From Asterias amurensis (Eukaryota > Echinodermata > Asteroidea > Forcipulatida > Asteriidae), in contig NC_092667.1 in assembly GCF_032118995.1 (NCBI RefSeq), positions 8,160,857 through 8,224,856 on the forward strand: a stretch of 64,000 nucleotides of DNA, in the 5' to 3' direction. The notes below the pieces were generated by a model, which worked only from the letters and a program-made list of their open reading frames with translations, did no database searches and was not told where the DNA came from. A program made the position numbers and the translations under genes. Of the stretch, positions 1,569 through 25,652 are shown piece by piece (the first letter of the stretch is position 1; every line of letters begins with the position of its first letter).

Positions 1569-1889
1569 CTGTGGTCAAACCACCTTGTCCAACCAGTTTC
1601 GGGGTAAATTGCTGTTCATTTTCGCTTATCTTTGTTGTGAGTGTTAGCATTGTAGTCCCATACTTGCTGTCCTTTGTTCCCGTTTTCTCAGTTGTAAGTG
1701 TTAACATTGTAGTGTCATACACCATCTCTTCTTGTTCTGTAATTCCTAGTGTTAATGTGGTCCTAATGGATTCCAACTTCATCATAACTGTTGTCGGATC
1801 CTGTGAAGTGGCAGCTTTGGTCGGTGTTATTCCCTGCACCGTCGTCCTGGTCGGAACATTCACTTCAACGTCTTCAGTGGGTACTACCT
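1569..1889 (-). CDS. Gene A exon 6: Thr-rich stalk
   Basis: 107 codons, phase 1 at both ends (TTTCAG acceptor, GTAAG donor). The peptide is rich in Thr, with an internal duplication (two copies of TTMLTLTT about 25 residues apart) and no cysteine. It looks like an O-glycosylated membrane-proximal stalk and takes the place of gene B's 22-codon linker. Confidence 0.78.
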
Positions 1890-4800: not shown

Positions 4801-7800
4801 ACCAAGTTTGTTAATTTTGTTCAAAAACAAAACAACTAATTATGAGAGGTATTTTATTTAATTGAAAGTTTGCAGAAAATGTTGAATTTTGTTGAAACAT
4901 CTGTTTTTACGATTGAGTGTTTTACTAACATTCGGCCGACCATGCCAACCAAGGCGGTTTGTTTATCAACAAGAAAAGGTCTATATACGCGCTCCGGCAT
5001 GCGCGCAGGCGGCCATTTTCTAAGTTGACAAACAAAACTGGCATCTCACAGCGTGTGTTTGTGCGGCCATTTTGTAAGTTGAACAAACAGCATCGCGTGA
5101 GCGTTCAATAAAAAAAAACCTCAAACGTGTATTGCATATTCAACGTGTATTGCATATTCAGAATGACGCGCTTGTCATTTTGCGGTCCCGTGGCGTTTGT
5201 GCACGAAGCCAGAGCCGTATATTGGGAGAGTTGCGACAACTTGCGATTAGAAACATCACTCGTGCGCCCTCTAGTTCTTTTCTATAACTCTATGCACTGA
5301 ACAGATCATTATTTAAGAGTCACTGGTCTCAAAGATCAGTAATGTGATTAACGCACGAAAGAGATGGGAACCATCAAAAGCTCAAATATGGCCACTGAAC
5401 ATGTCTGGAAGTACTGCCGAGAGAAAAGTAAAAAAAAAGGAAAATTGTGGCCGTTTAATTCGCTAAAAAGGGTATTCATTAATGGGAATAACAGTGTTCG
5501 TACCCGGTCTTCACTGCGTGGTCCGTTAACAGCGCCAGTCACCAACCCGGTCATTACCACGCAGCGAAGACCTGGTACTCGCACTGTTATTCCCTAAATA
5601 CAATACAAACTCAAGCATGTGAAAGTTTAAGCTGAGTCAGGCATCGTAGTCACAGGGAAATAGTAATTATTGCCAAAGGCTTTTACTGTTTTCAAACGTA
5701 GTTTGGGGCTCGCATGATAGTTGGTTTAATTATTTTATACATAAGTGAAAATCAACTGGGGTGGAAATATTTTAAGGAGGGTTGTCCACGATGAACGTAT
5801 ACCATAAGTACTGCGCAATTGGTTTGTTTTCACTCTTTACCAATGTTGTGCAGCTCCTAGTCTTATGTCATGTGACAGAGAAGGGGTGACTGCAATTTCC
5901 ACCCCATCATTCTGTATCGTTAGGCTCATTTTAGAAAACAGAATACATTATTAAAGTAAGAATGAAATTTCAAATGTTTTAAAACTTTTCAATTAGCTGA
6001 ATACCAACCTGTGCAGTTTGGCGGTGACTCTGTCCATATTGCTTGATTTGCTGTGTTATCAAATAGACATTGTATAGAGTGTGCACCAACCAACTCAAAA
6101 CCTTCACCACAAGCGAACTGCACCAAAACTCCATAACGATATGATGTTTCTGTCGCGGTTGTTCTGTGACTGTTAGCTGACACCCCTGGATCCGGGCAAA
6201 ACCCAAGGTGAACTGTTGATAATCAAGAAGGGAAAGAGCATCATCCCATGGAAAGCTTTAAGTAATTAACTGAATGTAAAATTGCTATAGTTTCGGTATG
6301 TTTAATTGAATTGAATATACTCTATTATTTTCAAATTAGCCAACTATTAATAGAGAGCATTCCTGTATGATATAAACGAATTAGGTGTCACTCAAAGTCT
6401 ACAATCGTATCATTTAAAGAACTCACACATTACTATAGGATTTCAAACTTTGCATGGTGGGAGTAATCAGGTGAGCTTTGCGGTATGCACCACCCCTGAA
6501 TACTGTATCAGAATATCGGTTTATCTTATTGTATATATGGTGCCGTACTGCAAACCTCACCTATCCACGTAACTCACGGTTACTAAAAACATTTTCACGC
6601 TACTTTGAAGAAACTTGATTTGGGGATTTGGTAAGCTAAAACAAAACATAATAGTGAACACCCAGAAATATTATAGGAATCTATAGCTCACGTGGCTCAG
6701 GGCCACCCATTCCCCCTCTTTAACTTTTGGTGTTTGGGTGCTTGCCGGGGGCACTTACCATCGTATACTGACACATTGGATTTGTCTCCACACACCTCAT
6801 CTGAATCTCCTTTACAAGGCACCTTGCAATCACTGTCTTTCTTCTGGGATCTTAAAGAAATTGTCTCATCACCACAAAAGCACTGTTTTCCTTTGCCTAG
6901 ACCAGCCTTTATCATGCCCTCAATACTTCGACAATAATTGAGACATAATGTGATGGTCATTTTGTCGTCAGTGAAGGCAACCTCACGGAATATGCTGTTT
7001 TTCTTGTTACTGTAGCATCCATGGAAATCTGGTTCTTTTGATAATAAATAATAACCAAGTATAAAACAGTACATCATTTTTGCACTGATTGTATTTCCAT
7101 GGTGAGCATTATACACAAACGAGACAATGTACTGGGATCTAATCAGGCACGTTTTTATTACTAGTCTCCCCTTTGTTGGTGACCAAAGTTTATTCCATTA
7201 TTTGCGTCATTGTTCTAACATTATTTAGCTATGTGAAATTCCATTTTAAATTTGTAAGTTTGATGCAATTCCTGATGTGCTTCAGTTAAATACTTGCTTA
7301 AAATAATTCATTGAACAATGGTTGTGACAGTGACCACACTATTCAACGTGTTCAAACTTGATCGTGACGTGCTGTCACAACCAATTACTTCTAAAAATTA
7401 AAGCTAGTGAAGTAATCTTTTACATTTTATTTGTTTTAATTGATAGAAAAGTTTAATAAGAAAAGTCTCAATAAATCAAAGCACTGTTTATCATGCACTG
7501 CGTGTGATGGTGCACGGTTTAAGTATCAGGCTTGCACACAATGTGCGCCTTTCCGTACCGTGGTGTGAAGTTACATCGCCTTTGATTTGACAAAGGTTTT
7601 GAGGTGTTCACTGTTTTCATCTGTCCGACGAAAATAAATTCAACCAATCACAGCGAAGATGATACACAGGGTAGAAGAATAATTTTAGCGGAAAATGGTG
7701 GAAACCCCACCTACCCAGGTTATTTCAGTAAACGAATGAGGGCGTATCACAATCGGTGTGCAGAGTTGGTTTTTGGAAGTGCGCCGTGGAGGCCACACAA

Positions 7801-10800
7801 TATTTATCTCACAAATGCTGCGTTTTGGGTTCTTTTGAAAAACATTTTGCTTGACCGTCCGACGAGTTCCTGTGATCATTTAAAATAAAACCACAATGAT
7901 TTTAAAGACAAATAAATATAAATAGGAATGCCGAGCAACCCGTTCTTGGACGTCTTTTAAATTTTTCGTGGCCAAACATTCTGCGTCGAGATACTGATTT
8001 TCAGATCGAGCGCAACGAGACTACTTTTCCATAATACTTGTTCAGTAATCGACTCTTTACTCACTTGTACAAATAAGACCTGCTCCATTTCTTACACCAC
8101 ACCCAGTAGGCGATACTTCATAATCACACTCTGCAAGATTGTTGTTTTCTGTATACACGCAAATAAACAGACAAATCAACGAACAAAATAACAAAAGTAC
8201 CAAGTTGACCACTCACGAGTTTGTCAATGTCAGGGCCAGTGGTCATAGTTATAACTCCTGCACTACTGACATTATAATTATTACCATTCTAAATAGTGGT
8301 TTGCAAATCACACATTTTTACCAATTGGGGACAAAGCTGGATGTGGGTTCAAAATGGTCAGATAGAATGTGACTCAAGCCTTTTGACATGGTGAATAAGT
8401 TGTAAAATACACAGCACATGTGCTGCTGTACAAATAACCCTTTATAGGTTAAAAGTATTGGTCTCACAATTTAACCCAAACACACAAACATGCGTCAGGA
8501 ACTCGCACCAACAGTTTTACTTGTATCTTCTCCTAGATACATGTTTGCAATGTTCTTGTAAGGGCCTACACGAACATCCATCGGCGTCGTCTTATTATGA
8601 CCGTGTGTAATACGAACAGTTATTGGTCTGTCTGCTGTCGAGGTTGTTGCACTGATTTGTCGATGTCAGTTACATCAATAGAACGCAAAACTTACAGAAA
8701 TTTGTTTACCAGAAATCATAATGCAATATTTGCAGTTAAGTATAGCTGTTCCGTATCGTCGATAAAAAGGGTCACGATCGATGCCGGATTCTGCACGGGT
8801 TGCATCAATGCCTGAAAAGCATTATTTGTCCAAACAATTGCGACCCTTAAACAAATTACCCATAGCTAAGTAGTCGAACTTGCATCTCATATTCGTGACG
8901 TAACGTAACATTACGTAACGTAACGTAACGCAACGTAGCGTGATAACTCAACAAGGCCCGCTTTTCTTCTAGATTTTATTTCAGTTGACAACTGTGGTTG
9001 TAGTAAGAACAAAACTTAAACAAAGCTAGCATGCTGCCTATGGTAGCGAGGCTGGGAGATAATCCATGCGTAGGTTTGGGTTGCTCACTAAAAATGATTA
9101 ATTTCATTTAGATAACAACTTCCATTAACACACAAATCATTTTTTTTTACGTAAAAGAGTAGTAAAGACAATGCAGCTACATGGTTGAAAACAATGATAA
9201 AAAGAACAAAACCCTTTCTGCATCTGAATCGGTTGACTGATCCTGGACCAGCTGTTTCTTCGCCATAGTAAGAGTCTATCCTGGTTTGTGAATAGCCCGT
9301 GTATCCTAGCTGACGGCAAGCTATAACACCATCTTCACTATTCCAGTCTCCATCACCACATACAGGAAGCCAGGCTTCACCGTCTATTTGGACTTCAACA
9401 CGGCCTGAGTTAGGACTGCTGATTGGTCCACCGATGAGACGAATATCGGTTATTTCTAACCAAATGGAAACAAACATAGACAGGTTTTGGAACTTTAAAT
9501 GTACATGCTGCAAAATTGTACCTTTCTACTTGAAATAAAAATAAACAAGTGTAACTAAACTGGAAAGACATGTGCAACAATGGTCAGTCACTATTTCGTA
9601 TTACTGGGGGAGGGGGCGTTGTTTTCATAAAGGGCAATGCATACTTCTGTTACGCTCGTTTGTTTCCACACTACTTTAAACATACGATAAACTAGCATGT
9701 GAATAGTTCTATTGACTTTTGGGACACCCACTTTCTAATTGTCCAGCAAATGTAGACTAATTGGTTGGATTATTAGCAACCAGGACTACTCGTTATATCG
9801 CTGTAGTCAAAGTAGTTCAAAACTCACCCACATATGAACATTACACATTATTTAAGTTTAACGAGTTTCTTTTATTTAAAAAAACATGGTATCAGATGAA
9901 AATGGGCCCACGGCTAATGGCCACCCACTGTTGAAAACATACGACATAAACAACAAACTTTGTACATCACGACAGTGTAATATTTGTTCCATTTAAAGAC
10001 AGTGGACACCATTTGTAATGTTCAAAGACTATAGTCTTCTCTCACGGTGTATCTCAATGCATGCAGGAAATAATAATCCTGTGAAAATTTGAGATCAATC
10101 GGTCGTCGAAGTTGCGAAATAATAATGAAAGAAAAAACCAATTGTCACACGAAGATGTGTGTGCTTTCAGATGCTCGATTTCGAGTCCTCAATTTTAAAT
10201 CAGAGGTCTCGAAATCAACAGCTCCCCATTACTCGTTACCAAGTAAGGTTTTATGCTAATAATTATTTTGAGTAATTACCAATAGTGTCCACTGCCTTTA
10301 ATGGTACCTTTTATATTGTGTTAGACACTGGGAACTATTGGTAATTGTGAAAGACCAGTCTTCTCACGTGGTGTATCTCAACATATGCATAAAATCAAAC
10401 CTGTGAAAATTTGAATTCAATTAAAATTTGAATTCAATTGGTCGTCGGAGTTTCGAAATAACAGTGGAAAAACACCCATGTCACACAAAGTTGGGTGTTA
10501 TCAGATGCTAAATCTAATTCGTGGACAATTATTTTTTTCTCGAACACTAAATTACATCAGAGGGAGCCGTTTCTCACAATGTTTTATACTATCAACCTCT
10601 CCCCATTACTTGTTACCAAGTAAGGTTTTATGCTATACCGTGTGTCTCAAAAATATCTATACACTTTTGAAATGGCTGCGAAATGAAAAGTATATGATTC
10701 TGGAGGAAAAGGTTTAGGTGTATGGATACCTTATGGTCTCAACTTTCACATGACACTGTGAAGGGTTGAAAATAAGGCTGCGCAGGAATTAGCCTTCCCT

Positions 10801-11756
10801 TTGTGAGAGGTAAGTCCTTTGTAGCTTACACAATTCAATCCAAGATTTCGGCTACTCCAGGTCAATGGGTAAACTGAAGAATAAGTAGCCAACATCTTTG
10901 ACATTCCTGTTTTCAAAAAACCGTATCATTGAACAATCTTTGTACATAATCCCCATCTGATTATTAAGAAAAACCAATGAAATGTTCAACTCATCTTACA
11001 ATTACTGAAATGCGGGATGAAGGTTTTTATTAAAAGTCACAGATGTTAAAAAACAAACACAGTTTGTGGAGTTTGTAACATGGAAATTGCTACATGTACC
11101 ATCACACCATCGCGACTCACATGAAGACACCACCGAGTCTACCAGGGAAAGTTACAATGCTACAAGAACAAAAATGCATTTCCTGTTTACTTATGAATGT
11201 AAAAAAAACATGGTTTAATAAACCATAAACTTCACTCAGCAAACCAAAACTTATCGTATTTGAGCATGAATTGATTACATCACCCTCAATTTTGTAAGCT
11301 CTCAAATTGGAAGGCTAATTCCTGCGCAGCCTTATTTTAAACACTTCACAAAAGTGAGCAGTGCTCACCCAGCCATGAATTATTTTCGGAATTTTTGGTG
11401 TCATATGAAAGTTGAGACCATAAGCTATCCATAAACAAAAATCTTTTTCCCCAGAATCTTTTATTTTTTATTCGGCAGCCATTTCAAAAGTGAATAGGTT
11501 TTTTGAGACACCCTGTATATTTACTGATAGTTGTCCACTGCCTTTAAATAATAATGGAAATTACACCACAAGACAATGAATACAAAACGAAGGATGGTAC
11601 ATAGATCTGATAATGCGTTTGCATAGGCATATCTTTATGATTGTTTTATTCACAAACGATGAATTTGTACTTACCTGATCTTACAGATACAACTCCATGT
11701 AGGACAATGCACACAAATATGAGCAGCATGCCTGTATGAGACCTCGCTTTGGCCAT
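1569..11756 (-). CDS. Gene A: SRCR-WSC-CCP receptor, 3' part beyond the window
   Basis: Partial gene assembled from six exons: 11756-11675, 9455-9213, 8148-8065, 7034-6759, 6212-6009 and 1889-1569 (403 codons plus one base). All five joins are phase 1 and keep one open frame. The product starts with a signal peptide, then an SRCR domain (residues about 30-137), a WSC domain (138-229), a CCP/sushi domain (229-297) and a Thr-rich stalk (297-404). The last exon ends in a GTAAG donor, so more exons, presumably a membrane helix and tail as in gene B, lie left of position 1. The start ATG has A at -3 and G at +4 and opens the hydrophobic leader. Two donors, after the first SRCR exon and after the CCP exon, are non-consensus (GTTTTG, GTTGGT). 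SRCR, WSC and CCP are extracellular protein- or glycan-binding modules; an immune or adhesion role is inferred. It lies about 1.8 kb downstream of its paralogue, gene B. Confidence 0.85.
2975..3265 (-). mobile_element. LINE 3' end, second fragment
   Basis: The minus strand reads KAFAATGPKCWNRLPQSVRL, then SFKSQLKTHLYPKLL and a stop, the LINE polymerase C-terminus again. It is followed by a short 3' region ending in AAGCGCTTTATAAGTAAGG and (TTA)n. The ORF is cut short upstream. Confidence 0.72.
3655..4369. mobile_element. Inverted-repeat element, TAGACTGTGCAAGTCTCGC ends
   Basis: Left end TAGACTGTGCAAGTCTCGCG; right end is its inverse. About 715 bp with no long ORF, so non-autonomous. A single end of the same family sits near 12885. 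Confidence 0.65.
4373..4608. mobile_element. Inverted-repeat MITE, GACCCTTCCCATG ends
   Basis: GACCCTTCCCATGAAATATG at the left and its inverse at the right, 236 bp. The interior has the direct repeat GGGTGCGTGACGCAGACGCG. It abuts the element at 3655-4369. Confidence 0.65.
4648..5294. mobile_element. Inverted-repeat element with a second element inside
   Basis: Outer ends CATAGAGTTATA and AACTAGAGGGCGCAC, inverted at 5260-5294. Inside the left end lies another inverted pair, ATAGACCTTTCTTTTG (from 4686) and AAGAAAAGGTCTATA (to 4985). No coding capacity. Confidence 0.6.
5473..5595. mobile_element. Palindromic MITE, GGGAATAACAGTG ends
   Basis: 123 bp near-palindrome: GGGAATAACAGTG then GGTCTTCACTGCGTGGT, mirrored on the right, flanked by T/TA. 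Confidence 0.65.
6009..6212 (-). CDS. Gene A exon 5: CCP/sushi domain
   Basis: Encodes VHLGFCPDPG, VQFACGEGFELVG, SIQC and AIWTESPPNC: the four cysteines and the Trp of a complement control protein domain. 204 bp, phase 1 at both ends. The donor (GTTGGT) is non-consensus but is the only one that keeps phase and stops right after the last cysteine. Confidence 0.85.
6759..7034 (-). CDS. Gene A exon 4: WSC domain
   Basis: Encodes a complete WSC module with eight cysteines: GCYSN at the start, TLCLNYC, KQCFCGDE, SDCKVPC and DEVCG, ending SVYD. WSC domains occur in fungal wall sensors, Kremen and polycystin-1 and are thought to bind carbohydrate. 276 bp, phase 1 at both ends, GTAAGT donor. Confidence 0.88.
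7323..7383. repeat. Short hairpin in gene A intron 3
   Basis: GGTTGTGACAG at the left and CTGTCACAACC at the right form an 11 bp stem about 60 bp across. The rest of intron 3 (7035-8064) shows nothing recognisable. Confidence 0.4.
8065..8148 (-). CDS. Gene A exon 3: SRCR domain, C-terminal part
   Basis: Completes the SRCR domain: LAECDYEVSPTGCGVRNGAG then LICT, with the last three cysteines. 84 bp, symmetric phase 1, GTGAGT donor. It is too short to appear as a long ORF and was found by looking for the missing SRCR half. Confidence 0.85.
8896..8942. repeat. CGTAA short tandem repeat
   Basis: GACGTAACGTAACATTACG and further CGTAA/CGCAACGTAG units, about nine in all, in gene A intron 2. The rest of that intron shows no other feature. 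Confidence 0.7.
9213..9455 (-). CDS. Gene A exon 2: SRCR domain, N-terminal part
   Basis: Reads IRLIGGP, then GRVEVQIDGEAWLPVC and VIACRQLGYTG, the signature start of an SRCR domain. It holds three of the six cysteines of a group A SRCR. 243 bp, phase 1 at both ends; the acceptor is TTAG and the donor a weak GTTTTG. Confidence 0.88.
9997..10297 (+). mobile_element. MITE-2 copy (TTAA-flanked)
   Basis: Complete copy: TTAA, then AGACAGTGGACACC to GTGTCCACTGCCT, then TTAA. The interior has the family landmarks ACCAGTCTTCTCAC, GTGTATCTCAA, TCGGTCGTCGAAGTTGCG and GAGGTCTCGAAATC. Lies in gene A intron 1. Confidence 0.75.
10320..11543 (+). mobile_element. MITE-2 copy split by a TA-flanked element
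   Basis: The left part (10320-10637) runs to TTTTATGCTATA and the right part (11516-11543) resumes with TATTTACTGATAGTTGTCCACTGCCT before TTAA. The interruption is the element at 10638-11515. The left end is degraded and lacks TTAA. Confidence 0.72.
10638..11515. mobile_element. TA-flanked foldback element inside MITE-2
   Basis: 878 bp between two TA dinucleotides. Ends CCGTGTGTCTCAAAAA and TTTTTTGAGACACCCTG. The arms are inverted copies for more than 150 bp (for example AAGGCTGCGCAGGAATTAGC and its inverse). TA target and CAGGGTGTCTC ends suggest a Tc1/mariner-like non-autonomous element. No transposase frame. Confidence 0.68.
11675..11756 (-). CDS. Gene A exon 1: signal peptide
   Basis: Encodes a short basic N-terminus (MAKARSHTG) followed by a hydrophobic core (MLLIFVCIVL), typical of a secretory signal peptide. 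It ends phase 1 at a GTAAGT donor. Cleavage near residues 25-27 is an estimate. Confidence 0.85.
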
Positions 11757-11934
11757 TTCTAGATTATTTGAAAACACAACGTCGTCAAAATAAAGCTAAT
11801 CAACCAAACGGTGTACATTTACACACGCACACAGTATAATAACCAAGCTTCATATAGGATCAAACCAAACCAGCAGGAACAAGACATCCGGTAGAAGTGC
11901 GTATCAGGATGTTCCTGAATAGACCTGCTGCTTC

Positions 11935-11943
11935 TATTTATAT
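11935..11943 (-). promoter_or_regulatory. Candidate TATA box of gene A
   Basis: On the minus strand GATATAAATAGAAG lies about 180 bp upstream of the gene A start codon. It matches TATAAATA well and would place transcription start near 11905. Inferred from sequence only. Confidence 0.5.
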
Positions 11944-12203
11944 CCACAGGATCAGCAAGTTGCAAAATAACTGACTATTATTTAGGAAGGTCTCGTTCTC
12001 AGTTCGCTGTAGGTTGGAGTTCAGCCTCCTAAATTACCTTTTGAGTCAACTTACGAGATAAATTACGAATTGAACATTGGCCTATAGATAGGCCACTTGT
12101 ACGCTAATGCCGGCCACTCAAACGCACATGTTACTAGTGGACTAGTAGCAACTTGCGTTTGAATGGCTGGCGTTGGTGATTATTTAACGTCAGATTTCCT
12201 TAA

Positions 12204-12585
12204 AGGAACACGTTGCCTTGGATCGGACGAGTTGGTCAAACCAAAAGCATTTGTAACCGTTTTTTATAAAATGCATATGGTTGGAAAGATGTTTTAAAAG
12301 TAGAATACAATGATCCACACAAGTTTGCCTCGAAATTGCGTGGTTTTCCTTCTACTGTGCGAACTAACATGGTCGGCCATTTATGGGAGTCAAAATTTTG
12401 ACCCCCATAAATGGCCGACATGTTAGTCGACGAGGTAAAAGGAAAACCACGCAATTTCGAGGCATGTTTGTGTGGATCATTGTATTCTACTTTCACAACA
12501 TCTTTCTACCCATATGCATTTTATAAAAAACGGTTACAAACGCTTTTCAAAGACCAACTCGACCGATCCAAGGCAACGTGTTCCT
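12204..12585. mobile_element. MITE-1 copy a: near-complete palindrome, TTAA-flanked
   Basis: 382 bp between TTAA repeats (12200-12203 and 12586-12589). It begins AGGAACACGTTGCCTTGGAT and ends with the inverse. The two halves are complementary almost to the centre (CATTTATGGGAGTCAAAATT / AATTTTGACCCCCATAAATG), so a transcript would fold into a long hairpin. Confidence 0.8.
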
Positions 12586-13344
12586 TTAATGACAACATGA
12601 AAGTTTTCGGACAAAACCAAATTTTGACGTGTCCCACGAACGGCTATAAATGCACATAATTTTTCCAAAATCCCCCAAAGTATCACATTTAAAGAAAAAG
12701 CCCCACTATAAAAATACTTCACTAAACTTAACAAAAAGCATATCTCTCCCCTCGTTCCCCCTCTCTCTCTCTCTCCCTCTTGAGTCCTTTATGGCATAAT
12801 CCCTATTGCTAAACCATTGTTACGAACAAGTCAATCGAGTACATGTATACCTTTTATGAAACTTGTATTACATGTACTCCTAATAGACTGTGCAAGTCTC
12901 GCACGTAGCGAAAACGAGAACTTAATTCGAAAAAAAGTATATTTTTGTACAAACCAAATTGTATTGAAATTGTTATTTGTTAAAATATTCTTAAAGATTA
13001 TTATTTTTAACGTACTTTTTGTATAATTATTATTTTAATTCGTGTACATAATAATTGTTTTGTTTAAATTAACGTAAAAATTATACATTTACCGGGACGA
13101 GGATCGCTGTTTGACATCGACCGGGATGGTTTTTCTAATACACCCCGTTTGTGAATCACGTCCAATTGGTGCGATCATCACATAGTTTCAGCGATAATGG
13201 GAACGTCAATTGGGTAATATTCTTAACTGTTTAGAGTAAACCGGAAACTGGAGGTCAAGTTTTTTTCTTTAGTTTTCTTCGTTAATTTGTTGAATTGATT
13301 TTACTTTTCTGTTTTTAATTACTTATTTTTACATTCCCAAGAAG

Positions 13345-13546
13345 TTTAGAACTTGAGGTCTCGAAATCAAGCATCAGAAAGCACACAACTTTGTGTGACA
13401 AGGGTGTGTTTTTCTTTCATTAATATCTCGCAACTTCTACAACCGATTGAGCTAAAATTTTCACAGGTTTGTTATTTTATGCATAAGTTGAGATACACCA
13501 AGTGAGAAGACTGGCCTTTGACAAATGCCAATAGTGTCCACTGTCT
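13345..13546 (-). mobile_element. MITE-2, inverted partial copy
   Basis: Inverse of the MITE-2 left part, ending GTGTCCACTGTCT then TTAA at 13547-13550. The other half is missing. It lies just beyond the gene B stop and probably within its 3' UTR. Confidence 0.65.
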
Positions 13547-13596
13547 TTAACTCAAGTCTACATCAAACCTTTTAACAATTAACAAATTCAAAGTCA

Positions 13597-14155
13597 TTAA
13601 TGTGCATCAGGAGGTAAACTGTAATATACATTCTCCATTTCTGAATTATCTTTAGCTGGTTCCGTGGTGTCTTGTTTACAAGCTTCTTTCATGTATTGGT
13701 TACCAGCGTTATTTGTGTTGCAATCCCCTATGAACTGTGGTGGTGCTACATATGAGTACTCATTGTCTTCACTTGAGCGTCCAGCTCGAGTGAGTTGTTG
13801 CTTATTGTTCTTGACAGTAGAAGGTTTGTGAGTATATTCATCAAGTGTAGAGTACTCAGCCTCTTCATCTGCAGCATTGTCTGTATTATCTCTCGGTGAG
13901 GGTTCGTCATAGAGTTCCAGATACTCCGGTACATCACTTGGTGATGGGTCGTTTGTCTGTAGGGCTGTGTAGGGTTTCTCATGAGCATCAAGAGTTGTGA
14001 AAGGGTCAAGGTCTTGGTATTCAGTGGCACCCTGTCTAGAAGGAGTGGCACTCTGTCTAGAAGGTGTGGCTTGGTATCGGGGATTAATCGGTTCAGAGTA
14101 CGTTGTGTGTTGTATCTCAGGCGACCTGGAGCTGGCACTATTTCCTGCTCTTCTC
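13597..14155 (-). CDS. Gene B exon 8: cytoplasmic tail with tyrosine motifs, stop codon
   Basis: Last coding exon, 185 residues and a TAA. Hydrophilic, acidic and Ser/Thr/Pro-rich. Tyrosine contexts in order: YSEP, YQAT, YQDL, YTAL, YLEL, YDEP, YSTL, YTHK, YSYV (overlapping YVAP), YMKE, and a final YYSL overlapping YSLP. YQDL and YTAL are 12 residues apart, which meets the ITAM spacing. YSEP, YDEP, YVAP and YSLP fit YxxP, the Crk/Nck type of SH2 site. A short SRQ repeat (TPSRQSATPSRQ) precedes them. No catalytic domain is seen. Confidence 0.85.
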
Positions 14156-17100: not shown

Positions 17101-20100
17101 TTTGATTTTGCAAGTTCTAAAAACATACTCAATGCACGTTCTAAAAATAGCACAAGGGGGAAATATATAGCAATATTTGTTTGTCTCAAGTAAAGCCAAG
17201 GATGATACTTTGTAGTGATGTAAAAGGTTTTATGAAATATTTTTGTTTTTTGGTGGGGTGGAGTTGTAACTATTAATTAAAAAAAACAGTTTTTCAGAGC
17301 CCAAAATCGGCCTAAAGTGGCCTAAACACAAATGAACTGTTACCATGGCAACGTGTTATATTATGATTTGAAATGTAAATGTTGTTTATTTGGACCCCAA
17401 GATGATACTTTAAAGTGATATAAAAGTTTTTTTGAAATAATGTTGCATTTTGGTGGGGTGGAGTTGTAAATATGAGCTAAAAACCAGTTTTTCAGACCCC
17501 AAAATCGGCCTAAAATGGCCAAAAAACAAAATGAGCCGTAACCATGGCAACAGGCTTTATATAGAATTAAAAATGCAATTTTGTTTACTTGCACCCCAAG
17601 GCCCTTCCACCCACAAAGTATAAAAAAAAAATCATTTTTTTGACCATGAGCAACTATGTCAATTATTTACCTGAACTGACTCTTAAGGCCAAGTGACCTG
17701 CAGTCGATTTAACAAAGAGTTAGGACTCGTCTTATTTCGAGTTAGGACGAGTAACTCGTCCTAACTTAGGATTAATCTTAAGGTCTGCATGCTATACATT
17801 GGAGGGTTTGGACTCGTTCTAAGTCCAAAGATTAGTCTTTTAAGTTAGGAAGAGTTTTGTGAAATCGACGGCTGGGGGTAACAAAGTGAAGCGCTTTGGG
17901 ACACCCTTCGGGCGTTAAAAGCGCTCTATAAAAACTAAACTATCATTATTATTATTATAGTAGGGTGGAAAAGACCAACGACCACACCCATCCCTCACGT
18001 GACATAGTCTCAGTTAAGTTAAATTGACTTGAATGGACTTTTTTTAGTCGATAATATTTCTCATTCATGACAAAACGATGCAATCTGATATCACGCTGTG
18101 ATTGCATCCACATGTACATAGACAATTATGTACACTAGGCCATAAGATACAAATTGCATTGTTTCAAGTTGTTAGTAAACTCACTGCAAGTGCTAATGAT
18201 AATAATGGGGGCCAAATATTAATAACAACCCCCCAAACAAACAAATAAACAAACACACACAAAACAAATCAATGTTTCCAAAACACACACTTACCGTTTA
18301 CGTCTCACAACTATTACCATAAGGCCGAGGAAAGAAAACACCACCAAGCATGCAACGACTATTCCAGCTATTGTCCCTGCAATAAAAGAAATAGTCGAAT
18401 TGAGAACAGTGTTTGTACACTAAAACCAAAATAGTGCAAACTAGAACAGCGAAGCTGCCATGGCGAGCTGTCAATCACCAGATAGAACCAATGGCTGACA
18501 GAAAAAGAAAAGAAAAAAGGATTTGGTCAACTGATTGTCAAAGGGGTAGGGACATTGACAAGTATTACTACACTTCAGGTTTTCATTGTTTTTGCTATTT
18601 TTAACAAGTAAGCAGCAAGACTTGTTTAAAGTTTTAACAGAATAGTTACATATTAAAGCAATCGCACAACATCGGTAAACAGTATTGTCCAAAAGCCCAC
18701 ACTTCGTGTATCACAAATTATACATAAAATAACAAACATGTGAAAGTTAAGGTTCAATCGGTCATCGGAGTCTGGAGAAAATAACGGGAAAACCCCCACT
18801 TGTTTCCAGACGTTTCGCCGTGTCACAACATGTGTTAAATATAAATCCGTATTCTCGATATCGAGATTTGATAGTTGTTTTCTCAAAAAGTAAAGCATTT
18901 CATGGAATTATATTTCAAGGGGAGTCTTTCACCATTGCCTTCTGTAAACACTGTAAAGTTATTTGTAAATCTGTGAACTTTTAATTTCTGTTCTCTGCAG
19001 AAAGTGTCCACTGGCTTTAAACAAATTTATTTCACAATTTTTCTATTTTAATTTTTAGATTGATTCTTTAAAATCCAGAGGTCAATGTTTTAGCCCGAAA
19101 AAATTATGACATTTTGATTATTCCAAAAACTTTAACATATTTTTTATTCCAAAAACTTCCAATATTATTGGAAATCATAGCTGAAAATTACCAACAAAAT
19201 GACTCGCAATTACATGTAAAATTTTTACTTGGGCTTGTACAACTCAACTCAAAGACTGAAACTTAACAAAATCTGAACACGGACGGACAGACGGACGGAC
19301 AACGCCAGACGGAAATTGGTATTAGATAGGCTCGCACTGCTTCGCAGCTCGCCAAAAACACAGATAGTTCAAACGCCCCAGTTCCACTGTTTTTCAAGTA
19401 TTTTCAATAGTACTTACCATGTACAATGTAATAATTATTGTTTTCTGCACAAACTACGGAGGCACTAAAGGGACATGTTCAACATAGAAATTACCCGGCA
19501 CAATTCTTTTACGGATGCGAAGTATTTGTAAAGTTTTACATAAATATTTTAATGCGACCGCTATTTTCATAATGTAGCAAACTGTACCTGATATTGAGGC
19601 GCTGTTATTTCCATAGTCCTCTCTGGGGTCTTGTGTGGTTAAGGACACCATCGCTGTTAATTAATACAAAATAATAAAACAATTGTTGTATTGGTCCTTG
19701 CTAATTGCTCATAGCGAAGTATAATAAACACACTTTAAAAGCTCAAGGGTCAGATTTTTGACCTGGCCTTTGGTTAATTTTTTTTTACCCTTTCCAGGTC
19801 AACACTTTTGTTGGGACATCAAAAATTACCCTTTTCCGGGCCATATTCTGACCCGGAACTCCAGGTCACGTCAACCCGGAATTGGTCAGGCCCCTCGTAA
19901 CTCGGAATCCTGGTCAGATCTGACCCTTTCTAGGTCAGATCTGACCAGGGTGTGTTTAGAGTGTATTGCACTGGCGGTCATAACTGACATAATCTGGACT
20001 TACATTGACAGTATGGCGTTGGATTATCCCACTGTGTTGTCTGTAGGGTATCTCCAAGAACACATCTCAGCAAATCTTCTCCAAAAAGCTCAAATCCCTC

Positions 20101-23100
20101 ATAACAGTAAAAGCTAATGTTAGATGCATAACGAAACGGCCCAACACCAGGTGAACGTCCTCCATTTATCGGACTCAATAGATCCTCACATAGGCCAAGC
20201 GTCACTGAGGATGATTGAGAGTTTGAAATTAAAGTGACTTTCAATATTTCCGGAGAGAAGAAAAACCGGAGGGGCCGGTTTGTAGGACATTTGGGTCTGA
20301 CAAAATAGTTTGCAGGACATAATAGTCGAACGTATTGGCTCATCGGACACAATGGTATGGACACACTGAGTTGTAATGGGTCGGGTATCATGGTTCAAAT
20401 ATTAATTTGTTTGATATAATAAGCTAAAGTATTACGTCTCCTGCGCCCAGGATTTAAATGCTGGAAATATAAAATAAAATAACCAGTAAGCAGTAAGCAG
20501 TAAGCAGTAATTTAAAACTGTTTTGTTAATACAAGCATGTGACAGCTGAAGCTCACAGGTGTTAAAGACAATGGACACTATTGGTAAATGGTAATTGTCG
20601 AAGACCAGTCTTTTCACTTGGTGTATCTCAACATATGCATAAAAATAACAAACCTGTGAAAATGTTGACTCAAGTTGTGAGATAATAATATTGAATATAA
20701 AACACCGTTGCTACACGAAGTTGTGTGCTTTCAGATACTTGATTTCGGGACCTCAAAATCTAATTCTGAGGTCTCAAAATCAAATTCAAATATTTTAGGG
20801 AAAATTACTTCTTTCTCGAAAACTACGTCACTTCAGAGGGAGCCGTTTCTCACAATAAGTTATACTATCAACAGCTCTCAATTGCTTGCTACCAAGTATG
20901 TTTTTATGCTAACAATTACTTTGAGTAATTACCAATAGTGTCCACAGCATTTAAACATTATGGTGCAATCGAACTAATCTTTTTGTTTCCAATGACGCAT
21001 GTATGTATCTTTAAAATGTAATGCACTTACAGTTATAGACAGATAGTGTTGCCCTGCCTCCACACACCTCATCATTGTTTCCAGAGCACTCCACATTACA
21101 GTCTCTGTCACGTTTTTGACTTCTTTGATTGATGTTGATTTCATCGGTCCCACAATAACATTGATTTCCACGTGTTAGCCCAGCAAACTTCATTTGTTGT
21201 TGCTGGCAGTGGTCTAGGCACAACCCAACGGTCATGTTCATGGCTGTTAGGGCGTTGTCATCATTAAATACTGGAGTGTTTGAAGGATTATTGTAGCATC
21301 CTATAAAACCAGGAACTGTTTAAACAGAAAACACAGAAACTGTTAAAACAGCTGAAAACGCTTTCAGTGATGCGTAACGTCCTGGTAAATGTTGTCGCCC
21401 ATTAATTATGTATATGCAACTAGAACCACAGTTATTCAAAGGTTACTATCAAAACAATTTTATCAAGAAAATAAATTTGCAGTTCCCCTTGCATTTTTAA
21501 TTTTTTTTTTAGCATTAACATACACATTTTTATTTATTAAAACCTTTATTTACACAAAATTTGTAGTTAAGCTTGTTTTAATTTATGAAAACGATATCAC
21601 TGGATCATGCATTAAAATATTTTTTTTTTTTTTTTTTTTTGGGGGGGGGGGGCGACAACGAAGACAACGAAGTATAACAGCACAGTTACAGTGATATCAT
21701 ACTTCGTTGTATATTCTGTGCGTTTTCCAGCACAAAAGTAGCGTTAGGAAACATTCAAACTTTACCTTTAAAGATAATCCAAAATAGGTGAGAATGCAAC
21801 CAATGTTGATCCTCATAATAATCCTTATTTATTGAGGCCCATGGTGCAGGTTTTCAAGTTTTCTCTGACTTGTATTAAGGTTGGTAAAAAGAGAGGAAAT
21901 ATCCACAATCAACCCGAAAAAACAGCCATACCCAGAGAATGAACCAATGAGCATTGTTATCCTGGAAGATATTCACAGGGTTCATGATAAGATGGTGTTC
22001 AAGATGCATAATGGGTATTTGTATATTATACACGTAGTTTCATGTTTGTGATTTTTTTAAATAACAATTTATTGAATGAATGAATGAATTTTTTTGAGAT
22101 TTTTGAATTTGAAACAATTAACTGTAATTCCCATTGCGCCGTCTGCAGTTTTAGGAATAAGTGAATTAAATGACATATAGGTTGGTTGTATCTTACCAGT
22201 GCAAATGAGTCCAGCCACACCAATCATACCAACACACCTAGATGGTTGTTCAACGGGCCCGTTATTACATTGTCCGAGATTGGGTTCATCTTTAATAAAA
22301 CAAAGCAAAAACCATAAAAACACAAAAATTGATTGGTCATCATAGCAATCAAAACATACATTGTACATAAACACGGCATTTCATAAATTTAGTTATTTCA
22401 TAAACAATCAAATTATTCCCCAAAATTCATGATTTTGCGTAATTCGTAAAATCTGTGTGCCTTCAGAAGAAATTGATCCCCAATTTGGAAAACAACAAAT
22501 CCTGTATTTTCCCTGGAATGTTTACTTACTCCCACGGCAACCAATCTCTCCAAGTGATCCATTATTAACTGCTTCACCGAAGTAGGAGCCTCTCCGAGCT
22601 CTTGCGAGACCGGGGAAACCAAGCTGTCTGCAAGCTACCATCGCGTCGTTTGCTCCCCAGAAATCGTTATCACACACATCCAACCATGTGCCATTCGGCT
22701 GCTGTACTTCCACGTTGCCGGAGTTTGGTGCACTTGCCGGGCCACCGAGTAGCCGTATGTTAATGAAATCTGTCACAGTCATACAAATGCAATAAACCAT
22801 TAAAAAAGTTCAGTTGTTTAAGCATTTTTATATAAAATTTACTAATCAGAACGATTGTAATGTTTGTTATGTTATGTTTTAGTACTGATATAGAAAGCAT
22901 TCAAACGGCATGGTTTTCCTTTGATTTACAGTACTATCATCTCTTTTATAAATGGAGTGTAGGCCCATGGTTGTGCAATCCACGCCCCTTCCATCAATTG
23001 AGTCAGGATCAGCCTAGCGTATCGCCCGCTTACTGCGTACAAGGAAAACTCCGATCCGTCACTTTGATTGGCAAGAATCGAGCAATGCATTGTGGGAACG

Positions 23101-25652
23101 AAAAGAAAATGGTGCTGCAAGAACGTACATCACTGGGAACGAGGTTGATACATGGTGTCCTGGTGTGGACTTAATGGGTGCGTTCGTTTAGCTTCCCTGG
23201 GTCAACCCCGGTGTGTGGTGTTTTTTCCACAGGACGAACCTGGGAAATTATCTGCACACGTTCGTCCTGGTAAAAAAAAACCGCCACACACCGGGGTCTC
23301 CCAGGGAAGCTAAACGAACGCACCCAATAGTAAAAGGGACTTCCGCCACTGACCAATGGGGTCTTGCATAAAAGTCATGATCCTGGCTAGCTCATAACAA
23401 AACCGTCAAGGCGTTGGTTCAGAGCGTCTCACACCACGCACGCATACAAACAACTAGCGCATTTTGTAAACATAGACTCACATAGCTCGGGTTGGTAGCG
23501 AAATAACGTATGCAAAGCAAAGAAAAAACAAGCTAAAAAACAAAACAAATTATAAATAACTGAAAATGAAACTCAAACGCTTTGGCCAAGGCCACCATAC
23601 TCATCTGTTCAAGAAGATCAGCCATGCAAGGAATTTTTTTTAACAACAATGCATGACTAGTTTGTACTTCGAAACCCTGTTCAACTTAAAATACCGTTTG
23701 GTGTCACATTCTGAGAAAAGCAAAAGTTATATTCAAGAACATAACATTAAATCTGATGCCATTTTCTGTATTCCCTGAATGCGCATGTTGTAGAATGTGT
23801 TTTAATTTGCAAATGTTGAATGAATTGATAAGAAGGATATTGTGCGAAATCTTACTATATAAACACACGTCATGGGTCGCAGAGTAACTTGTGTTTCCTG
23901 CATAGACAAACAAAATGACCCTCAACATCCGGGTAGTATTTCCCTAAATGTAAGGTACTGATGCAATGAACGTTATGAGACAGGTGCATTTTAAAAACTG
24001 CAGTTCTTATCTATAATACACAGCTTTTGTAAAAAAAAAAAACTTGTATTATCAGGTTGTGTTTTTCTTGTCCATTAAAGGGACACGTTGCCTTGGATTG
24101 GGCGAGTTGGTCTATGCAAAGCGTTTGAAACTGTTTGTTATAAAGGTTATGAAGATGTCCTAAAAGTATAAAAAATGTTCCAAACAATAATATGCATCGT
24201 AACATGCATTCACCACATCAACATCTAGAACGCGATCAGGTCTTGATGTAAAAGCAAGTCTAGCGTTGAACTATGACGAGTTTGTTCCTTCACCAGTTGA
24301 TGTAGACTATTTGAATCACTGATATGTTGTAAATCAGCAAACAGCTTAGAATTGTTCTTTTCAAAATTCCAATCTATATTAAAGTCACTGATGATTCTAT
24401 GGCCAGAGAAGCTTTCCAACGGCAAGCTCCAGAGTAATTCATCAAATTTCTCAATGAAGTTGGAACCAGTTGGTGGTCAATAAACCGTACCTACAAGCCA
24501 GCTTTCTGCACTAATGTTACATGTCATCCATACACTTTCAAGTTGAGTACTCACAGCAACATCATTGTTTAAAGGAACACGTTGCCTTGGATCGGACGAG
24601 TTGGTCAAAACAAAAGCGTTTGTAACCGTTTTTTATAAAATGCATATGGTTGGAAAGATGTTTTGAAAGTAGAATACAATGATCCACACAAGTTTGTCTC
24701 CAAATTGCGTGGTTTTCCTTCTACTGTGCGAACTAACATGGTCGGCCATTTATGAGAGTCAAAATTTTGACCCCCATAAATTAATGGCCGACGTGTTAGT
24801 CGACGAGGTAAAAGGAAAACCACGCAATTTCGAGGCATGTTTGTGTGAATCATTGTATTCTACTTTTACAACATCTTTCTACCCATATGCATTTTATAAA
24901 AAACGGTTACAAACGCTTTTCAAAGACCAACTCGACCGAGGATCAAGTTCAGGTTTCATGGCAAGGAGCACACCCCCTCCCCCGGAGCCGCGATCTTTGC
25001 GAGCAATGACAAACTCCTGAAGGATTGCAGAGTTCGGAACATCATGTGTCAGCCATGTTTCAGTTATTCCAATAACATCGATGTTCTGGGAGGTGACTAC
25101 CCCTTGAAGTTCTATCAGTTTATTTTTAATATGATATCTATAATTTGTTGACATGGTTGAGAAATCTTATGGGGGTATATTATCACCCAAGATCATCTCT
25201 AGGTCATCAAATTCAAAGTCGAAATAGAGGTTAAAAAAAGGCTATCAAACCTAAACATATTCATCCAAATAAGCACGGACAAACTTGGAAAGCTTCAATT
25301 TCCTTTCCAAAGACACCAATTTCAAACAATTTGACCCAATGGTTATCGATGTATGGTCGTTTGAATATTGGCGGTCGCATGCGCATTTTTGACCATCAAC
25401 GAGAAAGAGCATGCCGTAGGGCGAAAACCATTTGCATTGGATGGAGCTAAAATTCGAAATTGAAGCATGCAATTGAGCCAAGATTACCCCATAAAATTTG
25501 AGCAAATTTGAAAAGGGTAATTGACAGGAATGACCCAATTTAAAAAAAATTCACTTTCATATTTTCAAGGATAAACGCTCACCTTTACGTTCCTGTGCCA
25601 ATACAAACGCCACCATGCAATACACAACACCTACGATGTAGGCTGGCACCAT
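13597..25652 (-). CDS. Gene B: SRCR-WSC-CCP type I membrane receptor with multi-tyrosine tail
   Basis: Complete gene of eight coding exons: 25652-25583, 22769-22530, 22289-22197, 21315-21031, 20204-20004, 19653-19588, 18376-18295 and 14155-13597. The lengths sum to 1596 bp, 531 residues plus stop, with every phase consistent. Layout: signal peptide (1-20), SRCR (29-134), WSC (135-229), CCP (230-297), short linker (297-319), transmembrane helix (320-342), RRKRRR stop-transfer, then a cytoplasmic tail to 531. The tail has 13 tyrosines, many in YxxL/V or YxxP contexts, suggesting phosphotyrosine signalling through SH2 adaptors. The ATG has A at -3 and G at +4. It is paralogous to gene A downstream, with matching domain order, exon borders and phases. 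I know of no named vertebrate gene with this exact architecture. An innate-immune or scavenger role is inferred. Confidence 0.88.
14452..17682. mobile_element. Foldback element 1, 3.2 kb, TTAA-flanked
   Basis: TTAA flanks (14448-14451 and 17683-17686). Ends GAGTCAGTTCAGGTAAATAA and the inverse. The arms stay complementary for over 1 kb, for example TTGCCATGGTTACGGCTCAT at left and its inverse near 17545. The right arm carries an extra tandem copy (17090-17400 resembles 17400-17600). The centre holds MITE-1 copy b. No transposase frame. Confidence 0.7.
15910..16132. mobile_element. MITE-1 copy b, internally deleted
   Basis: Both ends present (AGGAACACGTTGCCTTGGAT and inverse) next to TTAA; the central half of the palindrome is missing, leaving 223 bp. 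Inserted in the centre of foldback element 1, so younger than it. Confidence 0.72.
17700..17876. mobile_element. Inverted-repeat MITE, TCGATTT..CAAAGAGTTAGGAC family, copy 1
   Basis: CAGTCGATTTAACAAAGAGT on the left and TTTTGTGAAATCGACGGCTG on the right, with palindromic AGTTAGGACGAGTAACTCGT in the middle. A second copy is at 44264-44418. Confidence 0.62.
18295..18376 (-). CDS. Gene B exon 7: transmembrane helix
   Basis: Encodes TIAGIVVACLVVF then SFLGLMVIVV, 23 uncharged residues, followed by RRKR. It enters in phase 1 and leaves in phase 2 at a GTAAGT donor, the only phase change in the gene. Confidence 0.87.
18657..19016 (-). mobile_element. MITE-3 copy, inverted (TTAA-flanked)
   Basis: TTAA on both sides (18653-18656, 19017-19020). 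Contains CTCGATATCGAGATTTG, CGGTCATCGGAGTC and ACGTTTCGCCGTGTC, matching the copies in genes C and D in reverse. Lies in gene B intron 6. Confidence 0.7.
19278..19303. repeat. GACGGACG microsatellite
   Basis: CACGGACGGACAGACGGACG and one more unit. Confidence 0.5.
19588..19653 (-). CDS. Gene B exon 6: membrane-proximal linker
   Basis: 22 codons encoding MVSLTTQDPREDYGNNSAS and a few more residues, with one N-glycosylation sequon (NNS). Phase 1 at both ends. It joins the CCP exon to the membrane helix. Confidence 0.78.
19745..19952. repeat. GGTCAGATCTGACC palindromic repeat cluster
   Basis: Repeated GACCTGG/CCAGGTCA and GGTCAGATCTGACC units in both orientations, between the CCP and linker exons of gene B. 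Looks like a degenerate MITE. Confidence 0.45.
20004..20204 (-). CDS. Gene B exon 5: CCP/sushi domain
   Basis: Encodes VTLGLCEDL, ISFYCYEGFELFG, LLRC and TQWDNPTPYC: four CCP cysteines and the conserved Trp. It begins like its gene A counterpart (VTLGLC against VHLGFC). 201 bp, phase 1 at both ends, GTAAGT donor. Confidence 0.88.
20566..20950 (+). mobile_element. MITE-2 copy (TTAA-flanked)
   Basis: TTAA at 20562-20565 and 20951-20954. Ends AGACAATGGACACTATTGG and ACCAATAGTGTCCACAGCAT, with the full set of internal landmarks. Lies in gene B intron 4. Confidence 0.75.
21031..21315 (-). CDS. Gene B exon 4: WSC domain
   Basis: Encodes FIGCYNN, VGLCLDHC, NQCYCGTDE, DCNVEC and NDEVCGG, ending LSVYN: eight cysteines in WSC spacing. 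285 bp, phase 1 at both ends, GTAAGT donor. Confidence 0.9.
21620..21652. repeat. Poly-T followed by poly-G
   Basis: A run of about 21 T directly followed by about 12 G in gene B intron 3. Homopolymer length is uncertain in any assembly. Confidence 0.6.
22197..22289 (-). CDS. Gene B exon 3: SRCR domain, C-terminal part
   Basis: Encodes EPNLGQCNNGPVEQPSRC and GVAGLICT, completing the six-cysteine SRCR. 93 bp, phase 1 at both ends. The split matches gene A; in vertebrates, splitting over two exons is the mark of group A SRCR domains. Confidence 0.87.
22530..22769 (-). CDS. Gene B exon 2: SRCR domain, N-terminal part
   Basis: Encodes IRLLGGPASAPNSGNVEV, GTWLDVC and AMVACRQLGFPG, the diagnostic SRCR start, with three cysteines. 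240 bp, phase 1 at both ends, GTAAGT donor. Confidence 0.9.
23175..23326. mobile_element. Hairpin MITE, TGGGTGCGTTCGTTTAGC ends, copy 1
   Basis: 152 bp. TGGGTGCGTTCGTTTAGCTT then CCGGTGTGTGG, mirrored on the right; a small inner hairpin around GGACGAAC. A second copy is at 52936-53087. Confidence 0.72.
24079..24190 (+). mobile_element. MITE-1 copy g, left end only
   Basis: TTAA then AGGGACACGTTGCCTTGGAT and GGCGAGTTGGTCTATGCAAA; the right part is lost. Confidence 0.6.
24227..25240 (-). mobile_element. LINE endonuclease fragment, split by MITE-1
   Basis: The minus strand encodes MSTNYRYHIKNKLIELQG, IDVIGITETWLTHDVPNSA and GSGGGGVLLAM. After a MITE-1 insertion it continues with ESVWMTCNIS, SDFNIDW and STLDLLL. 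This is the APE-type endonuclease of a CR1/L2-like LINE. It has stops (one interrupts VGTVY-PP) and no reverse transcriptase, so it is dead. Confidence 0.7.
24573..24937. mobile_element. MITE-1 copy c, right end truncated
   Basis: Left TTAA (24569-24572) and AGGAACACGTTGCCTTGGAT; the palindrome is kept until CAACTCGACCGA, where it stops short of its usual end and LINE sequence resumes. Inserted in the LINE endonuclease. Confidence 0.7.
25583..25652 (-). CDS. Gene B exon 1: signal peptide
   Basis: Encodes MVPAYIVGVVYCMVAFVLAQ then ERK, a classic signal peptide with likely cleavage after the Ala-rich end. Phase 1 GTGAGC donor. No upstream in-frame methionine is needed. Confidence 0.85.

Follow-up and report, generated by a model that had tools for sequence, protein, structure and literature searches.

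The closest described counterparts of the locus reported here are Patiria miniata PMI_006935, which appears as a scavenger receptor/WSC/Sushi protein in a skeletal-proteome table, and its sea urchin counterpart, S. purpuratus XP_003729128.1 (PMC5460417, available in part). These proteins, from another sea star and a sea urchin, carry the same three modules as the two genes analysed below; they differ in that, in the available part of that paper, they are table rows without a described helix, tail, family or function, so that the comparison is one of listed domains. The initial annotation of the locus had proposed an undescribed system, which is too strong, as the architecture is already in print in these two entries. 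No further SRCR-WSC-CCP example is found in the available parts of PMC6767649, PMC8242945, PMC3927612 and PMC9024836, and it is fair to call SRCR-WSC-CCP genes functionally uncharacterised within the openly licensed PMC literature searched. Echinoderm germline SRCR sets are expanded, and the surveys mainly give domain content (PMC10855680, available in part). In S. purpuratus, 253 of 359 SRCR-superfamily genes lie in tandem clusters, and 36 WSC and 38 Sushi domains were counted in SRCR-superfamily proteins, but the available sections describe no SRCR-WSC-CCP receptor with a tail (PMC10855680).

Three further systems are instructive. Amphioxus BbLcLRR combines LRR and WSC domains in a membrane protein; Lck phosphorylates its tail tyrosines, and the protein binds SH2 phosphatases (PMC8211107, available in part). 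It resembles the genes described here in being a deuterostome membrane WSC protein, with functional, ITIM/ITSM-like tail tyrosines, but it contains neither SRCR nor CCP, and its inhibitory role was tested in Jurkat cells, according to the same source. CD6, CD5 and WC1 of vertebrate lymphocytes, in the descriptions available in part, share with the genes described here an SRCR ectodomain, a membrane helix and tail tyrosines, which in these receptors can be phosphorylated. Kremen combines kringle, WSC and CUB domains (PMC3927609, available in part).

Within a 64,000-nucleotide stretch of the Asterias amurensis genome (hereafter the window; NC_092667.1, positions 8,160,857 to 8,224,856), we find two genes arranged head-to-tail on the minus strand. 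Judged from sequence, their products are best read as pattern-recognition or scavenger receptors whose tail tyrosines would serve in signalling or internalisation, a reading to which we give about even odds. The genome itself looks like that of a sea star, and a sea urchin origin was rejected: the mitochondrial COX1 reads well under the echinoderm code, an inverted ND1 frame lies upstream of COX1 next to a cluster of tRNAs, which is an asteroid arrangement, and the 23 contigs agree with 22 chromosomes and a mitochondrion. The initial annotation had described two neighbouring minus-strand genes with a shared SRCR, WSC and CCP order, and this is upheld. Both genes have the order signal peptide, split SRCR, WSC and CCP, and Pfam scores for SRCR, WSC and Sushi are 60.4, 64.2 and 21.9 bits in gene 1 and 62.0, 61.2 and 28.2 bits in gene 2, all above the respective cut-offs of 26.1 (PF00530), 27.8 and 20.7 bits, although the CCP of gene 1 is barely so. 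When joined by predicted splicing, all three domains fall in one protein in each gene, and every ectodomain join in both predicted gene models is in phase 1. A single gene is ruled out: a stop closes gene 1, and gene 2 opens with a signal-peptide exon of its own.

Gene 1 (25652-13597, minus strand) runs in frame from an ATG at 25652 to a TAA at 13597 through six GT-AG introns and is predicted to splice to 509 residues, which replaces the 531-residue protein given previously. Specifically, exon 1 (25583-25652; donor 6.6, exit phase 1, where this and all other splice-site scores come from textbook matrices and are rough) carries the start codon and a signal peptide identified by reading (MVPAYIVGVVYCMVAFVLAQERK). 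The SRCR domain is divided between a first exon at 22530-22769 (phase 1-1) and a second at 22197-22289, with the Pfam match extending across both. These are followed by the WSC exon (21031-21315; AlphaFold mean pLDDT 89.7), the CCP exon (20004-20204; phase 1-1) and a transmembrane exon (18295-18376; TIAGIVVACLVVFSFLGLMVIVVRRK) that is entered in phase 1 and left in phase 2, with an acceptor of 9.7, a donor of 6.2 and a hydropathy of 3.18. The final exon (13597-14155) continues in frame and contains the cytoplasmic tail and the stop. The predicted product appears to be a type I membrane protein with a tyrosine-rich tail of 185 residues, including 13 tyrosines.

Gene 2, also on the minus strand, begins with an exon at 11675-11756 (donor 8.7, exit phase 1) that contains the start codon and a signal peptide identified by reading. 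The SRCR exons lie at 9213-9455, where the donor scores only −6.0 and the boundary is doubtful, and at 8065-8148 (acceptor 3.7, donor 5.1, phase 1), and the Pfam match again spans both. The WSC exon (6759-7034), the CCP exon (6009-6212) and a Thr-rich stalk exon (1569-1889; acceptor 3.6, donor 8.7) follow. A membrane helix and a tail had earlier been assigned to one gene; gene 1 does have them, but they are not limited to one gene, as gene 2 has a helix exon (−1078 to −1156 in window coordinates, phase 1 in and 2 out) and a Tyr-rich final frame of 255 codons (−1710 to a stop near −2477) to the left of the window. A secreted gene 2 product was set aside on account of these exons, doubtful as the helix-to-tail join is. 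The helix exon exits in phase 2 and the tail frame is in phase 1, so that they do not join directly, and a search of the interval between them for a bridging exon returned poor candidates only, with no convincing in-frame route. Because of this and of the very poor SRCR donor, gene 2 may have a small exon that was not found, or may be decaying. Decay of gene 2, leaving gene 1 as the sole functional copy, is unlikely but deserves to be taken seriously: the SRCR donor and the unjoined frames point that way, while the domain exons and the 255-codon tail frame, with its YxxPhi motifs, are open, and the splice scores are approximate. Such decay would be compatible with gene 1 being a receptor of the kind proposed here.

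The two tails do not align with each other (local score of 42 versus a shuffled mean of 41.6), and the gene 1 tail, searched genome-wide at E up to 0.1, finds only itself. The tails are unalignable while the SRCR, WSC and CCP domains of the two genes are 45%, 48% and 31% identical, and therefore motif density has been kept between gene 1 and gene 2, but sequence has not. YxxPhi motifs number six in the gene 1 tail, five of them YxxL, versus 1.30 in shuffles (0 of 2000 shuffles had as many), and nine in the gene 2 tail versus 2.86 (P 0.0005); YxxL/I motifs number five and six, respectively. The ITAM consensus is YxxL/I x6-8 YxxL/I in the tail. Gene 1 has no YxxL/I pair at this canonical spacing of 6-8, but has two ITAM-like pairs at spacing 12 (two or more pairs at spacings of 6-12 occur in 1 of 5000 shuffles). 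Gene 2 has one pair at the canonical x6 spacing, in a tail that is not joined in frame to the helix (137 of 5000 shuffles match at 6-8, and 60 of 5000 with an upstream acid). For the ITIM consensus [SIVL]xYxx[ILV] and the ITSM consensus TxYxx[VI], the gene 1 tail has no match, and the gene 2 tail has two ITIM-type matches (P 0.14) and two ITSM-type TxYxxV/I matches (P 0.004; 16 of 5000 shuffles). The gene 1 tail also contains four YxxP sites (P 0.021), and Grb2-type YxN sites are at chance (7 versus 6.2 across nine tails taken together).

Among scavenger receptors, SRCR proteins are a classic example, and YxxPhi, unlike YxN, is in excess in both tails, consistent with endocytic receptors that do not signal, in which YxxPhi would act as AP-2 sorting signals and the number of tyrosines would only raise uptake. 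We consider this unlikely, as a single sorting motif is enough for uptake, and the canonical-spacing pair and the two TxYxxV/I sites of gene 2, as well as the spacing-12 pairs and the YxxP sites of gene 1, resemble SH2 ligands more. For signalling through tail tyrosines, BbLcLRR offers a precedent (PMC8211107, available in part).

An alternative of similarly low probability is that the two proteins belong to the skeleton or the extracellular matrix, with the ectodomain binding matrix glycans or mineral-associated proteins, the tail anchoring the protein or signalling adhesion, and immunity not being the main role. The skeletal origin of PMI_006935 also fits a matrix or adhesion role for SRCR-WSC-CCP proteins, and XP_003729128.1 is marked Test in one table row and Test/Spine in a second (PMC5460417, available in part). 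However, the same source places many scavenger-receptor proteins in the P. miniata skeleton, so that presence there is unspecific; PMI_006935 is likened to genes 1 and 2 by listed domains rather than by sequence; and long tails with an excess of YxxPhi would be needless in a matrix protein.

The ectodomains themselves were compared with known classes. SRCR domains of group A have six cysteines and are spread over two exons, whereas those of group B have eight cysteines and a single exon; CD6, CD5 and WC1 belong to group B and are not known to have WSC or CCP. The SRCR domains of genes 1 and 2, which exceed the family cut-off, have six cysteines each (by reading) and are split over two exons, with the very poor donor noted for gene 2, are predicted to be of the group A type. 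Against SRCR_2 (PF15494, cut-off 27), gene 1 scores 17.1 and gene 2 scores 28.6, just above the cut-off, both far below the PF00530 scores. Group B repeats of the CD5/CD6/WC1 type were rejected, each gene having one six-Cys SRCR and PF15494 scoring far below PF00530. The closest solved structure of the gene 1 WSC exon is Kremen-1 (E 3.7e-24 by profile; TM-score 0.90 from the predicted fold), and the predicted fold also matches yeast Wsc1; the WSC domain may bind glycans, as was initially presumed. A role as Kremen-like Wnt/Dickkopf co-receptors, to which this structural match points, is scarcely credible, since Kremen-1 shares the WSC fold but lacks SRCR and CCP, neither kringle nor CUB is found beside WSC in either protein with Pfam at E up to 1, and the lead arises partly from the small number of solved WSC structures, four of the six PDB sequences matched by the WSC profile being Kremen-1.

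The two candidate receptor genes have relatives on the same chromosome. Among 35 WSC matches in the genome, 19 lie on chromosome C20, which makes up 3.1% of the genome. The initial proposal of a small receptor family pairing WSC with SRCR and CCP is thus borne out as to a family with this pairing, but "small" does not hold, since one chromosome alone carries 19 or more WSC loci. In the 18 C20 loci examined, which leave out the WSC locus at 11.307 Mb, an SRCR match lies upstream in nine, seven of which have a CCP match too. For the other nine, SRCR was not found in the available sequence (none within 8.8 kb upstream of the WSC at 11.108 Mb), which counts against the mechanism proposed below. 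The genome SRCR search scored 150 of 454 candidates, and no counts are drawn from it.

Besides genes 1 and 2, a further 12 loci have a phase 1-to-2 helix exon, in a scan open to all three exit phases, every listed helix exon exiting in phase 2. Tyr-rich frames read as tails lie downstream of nine of these 12: of 19 downstream frames, reading identified nine as tails, and the ten discarded comprised WSC exons, a duplicate entry, other frames and, at 10.478 Mb, a frame of 47 residues. For the relatives, motifs were counted on manually trimmed tails, leaving out those at 5.499 and 5.518 Mb, which are near copies of others. Tested one by one, three of the seven tails from relatives have more YxxPhi motifs than their shuffles (P<0.05), in a set whose search had asked for such motifs. 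The pooled YxxPhi count over nine tails, 35 versus 12.4, is not used as evidence because the seven relatives' tails were chosen by such motifs. Five of the relatives' tails were tested for ITAM-like pairs, and all five lack one. In tandem relatives dN/dS is near 1, which can also mean relaxed constraint.

The domains, their order, the intron phases, the helix, the motif excess in the gene 1 and gene 2 tails and the relatives on one chromosome are all predictions from sequence, and the following mechanism is built on them. Genes 1 and 2 would be old tandem duplicates, and the sea-star family to which they belong would consist of type I membrane receptors. Their ectodomain, consisting of a group A type SRCR, a WSC of Kremen/Wsc1 fold and one CCP, would bind a surface ligand, with glycans or polyanions of microbial or altered-self origin as the likeliest candidates, and with the CCP, and in gene 2 also the Thr-rich stalk, serving as a spacer. 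Receptor clustering would then lead Src-family kinases to phosphorylate the tail tyrosines and thereby recruit SH2 proteins, and in addition, or instead, these tyrosines would act as YxxPhi signals for clathrin uptake. The outcome would be that phagocytosis or cell activation is triggered or tuned, plausibly in a coelomocyte.

The SRCR-WSC-CCP architecture by itself is ordinary for echinoderms. A set of such genes on one chromosome, including two whose tails are dense in tyrosines, provides concrete genes for testing phosphotyrosine receptor signalling in echinoderms, for which amphioxus BbLcLRR and the lymphocyte SRCR receptors offer a comparison. More speculatively, and with a low probability in our estimation, the chromosome may hold a large, fast-changing family with modular SRCR/WSC/CCP ectodomains and with tails that bear tyrosines but are unlike one another, those of genes 1 and 2 at least being dense in ITAM-like motifs (and in gene 2 also ITSM-like motifs). 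Such a family would parallel, in echinoderms, the paired immune receptors that vertebrates carry in clusters. If this is true, related ectodomains would be wired to different outputs, as in those vertebrate receptors.

Gene 1 extends on the minus strand from an ATG at 25652 to a TAA at 13597 and comprises seven predicted exons, encoding in order a signal peptide, SRCR (split over two exons), WSC, CCP, a helix (small exon, 18376–18295, minus strand) and a tail (long exon, 14155–13597, minus strand). With predicted splicing, the frame stays open across every join and ends at the stop after 509 residues, all six introns are GT-AG, and the joins within the ectodomain are all phase 1. Gene 2, which starts at 11756 on the minus strand, has the same domain order plus a Thr-rich stalk exon (1889–1569, minus strand). 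The joins in both genes are predictions, scored with typed textbook matrices that are rough. Sushi, WSC and SRCR all exceed Pfam cut-offs in both proteins, the gene 1 CCP only barely (21.9 versus 20.7 bits for Sushi), bearing out the order of signal peptide, SRCR, WSC and CCP read in both genes by the initial annotation. Frames in intron 1 of gene 1 (24225–25166, minus strand) resemble retroelement fragments by eye; a Pfam search with two pieces of them, at E up to 0.01, found nothing.

The initial annotation assigned a helix and tail to one gene only. This holds for gene 1, but gene 2 also has both exons, hidden from that reading because they fall to the left of the window, in the flanking stretch L012: a helix exon at −1078 to −1156 and a tyrosine-rich final frame of 255 codons from −1710. 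The donor after the first SRCR exon of gene 2 scores −6.0, and the helix exon exits in phase 2, which does not fit the phase 1 required by the tail frame; joining exons sought in the helix-to-tail interval were only poor candidates. The poor donor and the phase clash thus indicate either that a small exon was missed or that gene 2 is decaying. Adjoining the receptor pair are apparently tandem transporter genes, seen as two similar sodium:solute symporter frames (35352–35888 and 56159–56548, plus strand; Pfam SSF 40.1 and 43.8 bits). Frames at 45066–45773 (minus strand) consist of many copies of one short peptide repeat, and hence represent not a gene but a minisatellite-like array.

We modelled the gene 1 WSC exon together with 18 relatives found in this genome, obtaining a mean pLDDT of 89.7 for gene 1. 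Seven of its 43 PDB matches have E <0.001, all of them to Kremen-1 (TM-score 0.90), a glyoxal oxidase of fungal origin (0.87) or yeast Wsc1 (0.75–0.76), the last a PAN/apple fold said to mediate protein and carbohydrate contacts (PMC9024836). These matches to a predicted model support the WSC fold, not any ligand.

Scoring all 46 first-look candidates in the 491.5-Mb, 23-contig genome yielded at least 35 WSC matches, 19 of them on C20, the chromosome on which the window spans 8160857-8224856 and which holds 3.1% of bases. We surveyed 18 of these 19 loci using profiles built from the family's own exons, members having first been gathered by tblastn; a missing partner is one missing within the sequence examined, which at the outermost loci reaches roughly 5 to 9 kb upstream. 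SRCR lies upstream of WSC in nine of the 18, namely genes 1 and 2 and the loci at 6.00, 9.511, 9.521, 10.399, 10.424, 10.482 and 14.02 Mb, with only partial matches at 10.399 (E 3.8e-7), 10.424 (5.8e-9) and 10.482 Mb (5.2e-11). The profiles also match CCP downstream in seven of the nine, and found none at 10.424 and 10.482 Mb. At 11.108, 12.637 and 12.669 Mb, WSC stands without a clear partner, CCP candidates being absent or weak (E 0.0048, 0.96). Small helix exons, entering in phase 1 and leaving in phase 2, occur at 12 further loci, six in a cluster at 5.48–5.52 Mb and one on contig C13; a second, weaker candidate lies at 6.00 Mb. The 9.511 Mb gene and the loci at 10.395, 10.42, 12.63 and 12.66 Mb yielded no such exon. 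By reading, we identified Tyr-rich tail frames downstream of the helix exon at nine of the 12; in the 1.2 to 3.1 kb examined downstream at the other three, no frame was listed at 6.005 Mb and on C13, and 10.478 Mb showed a single frame of 47 residues, excluded from the count.

Genes 1 and 2 are 45%, 48% and 31% identical in SRCR, WSC and CCP, respectively, and gene 2 has the nearest WSC to gene 1 among 18 aligned sequences (the next is 38%), which suggests that the pair arose by an old tandem duplication. The 5.48–5.52 Mb cluster (G000:C20:5483000-5526500, L013–L017) contains six WSC-CCP-helix genes arranged head-to-tail, with no SRCR detected. Only three sites separate its WSC exons at 5.490 and 5.504 Mb, indicating that some duplication is recent. 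In four of the six, WSC dN/dS is 0.72–1.17 in five pairs, the sixth having no synonymous change; in three of them, CCP dN/dS is 0.66 in two pairs, the third having no change. Such ratios are compatible with either weak constraint or diversification.

Two full-length COX1 matches on a nuclear contig (C5:658874-660214 and C5:675294-676634; L010, L011), with 12 TGA codons each, are either mitochondrial DNA copied into the nucleus, probably recently, or an assembly artefact. COX1 on C23 translates well with the echinoderm mitochondrial code; upstream, on the opposite strand, an ND1 frame adjoins a tRNA cluster, which we take to be the asteroid arrangement. Twenty-two chromosomes and a mitochondrion also fit a sea star, and we read the genome as one.

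Of the 185 residues in the gene 1 tail, 13 are Tyr; the tail carries six YxxPhi motifs, five of them YxxL, versus a shuffle mean of 1.30 (0 of 2000 composition shuffles reach six). The gene 2 tail has nine YxxPhi motifs (2.86 in shuffles, P 0.0005), and it also carries the TxYxxV/I motif twice (P 0.004). These values, and those for ITAM-like pairs, are per motif, several types having been tried. The gene 1 tail lacks an ITAM-like pair at the canonical spacing of 6–8 and has two at spacing 12 (at least two at 6–12 in 1 of 5000 shuffles), while the gene 2 tail has one at spacing 6, YQDL-x6-YTTL (at least one at 6–8 in 137 of 5000). The two tails do not align (local score 42 versus 41.6 on average for shuffled sequences), and a genome-wide search with the gene 1 tail, at E up to 0.1, recovers that tail alone. 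Three results run against a general tail-motif rule: three of seven relatives' tails, although chosen by such motifs, singly show YxxPhi excess at P <0.05; none of five relatives tested has an ITAM-like pair; and YxN sites, pooled over nine tails, are at chance level against shuffles.

From the predicted receptor anatomy, we propose that SRCR and WSC would recognise repetitive surface ligands, of which microbial or altered-self glycans or polyanions are the likeliest, with CCP and stalk keeping them away from the membrane. Clustering would then put the tail tyrosines within reach of Src-family kinases and of SH2 adaptors or phosphatases, and/or of AP-2 for uptake; ligand, tail phosphorylation and cell type are what we infer. 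Lymphocyte SRCR receptors are one precedent for the tail-tyrosine mechanism. Amphioxus BbLcLRR is another: this WSC-bearing receptor has a tail phosphorylated by Lck, and in stimulated T cells it bound SHIP1, SHP1 and SHP2 (PMC8211107).

The architecture, initially taken as undescribed, is already in print: a table entry for Patiria miniata PMI_006935 gives scavenger receptor, WSC and Sushi domains, alongside S. purpuratus XP_003729128.1 (PMC5460417). Sea urchin SRCR proteins have been surveyed as well, with 36 WSC and 38 Sushi domains counted among them (PMC10855680). Among matches listed in openly licensed papers, we recognised no functional study of such a receptor. Because PMI_006935 came from skeleton (PMC5460417), a skeletal or matrix role for genes 1 and 2 is a real rival to recognition. 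The interest of the receptor pair lies in its tail motifs and in the family on one chromosome.
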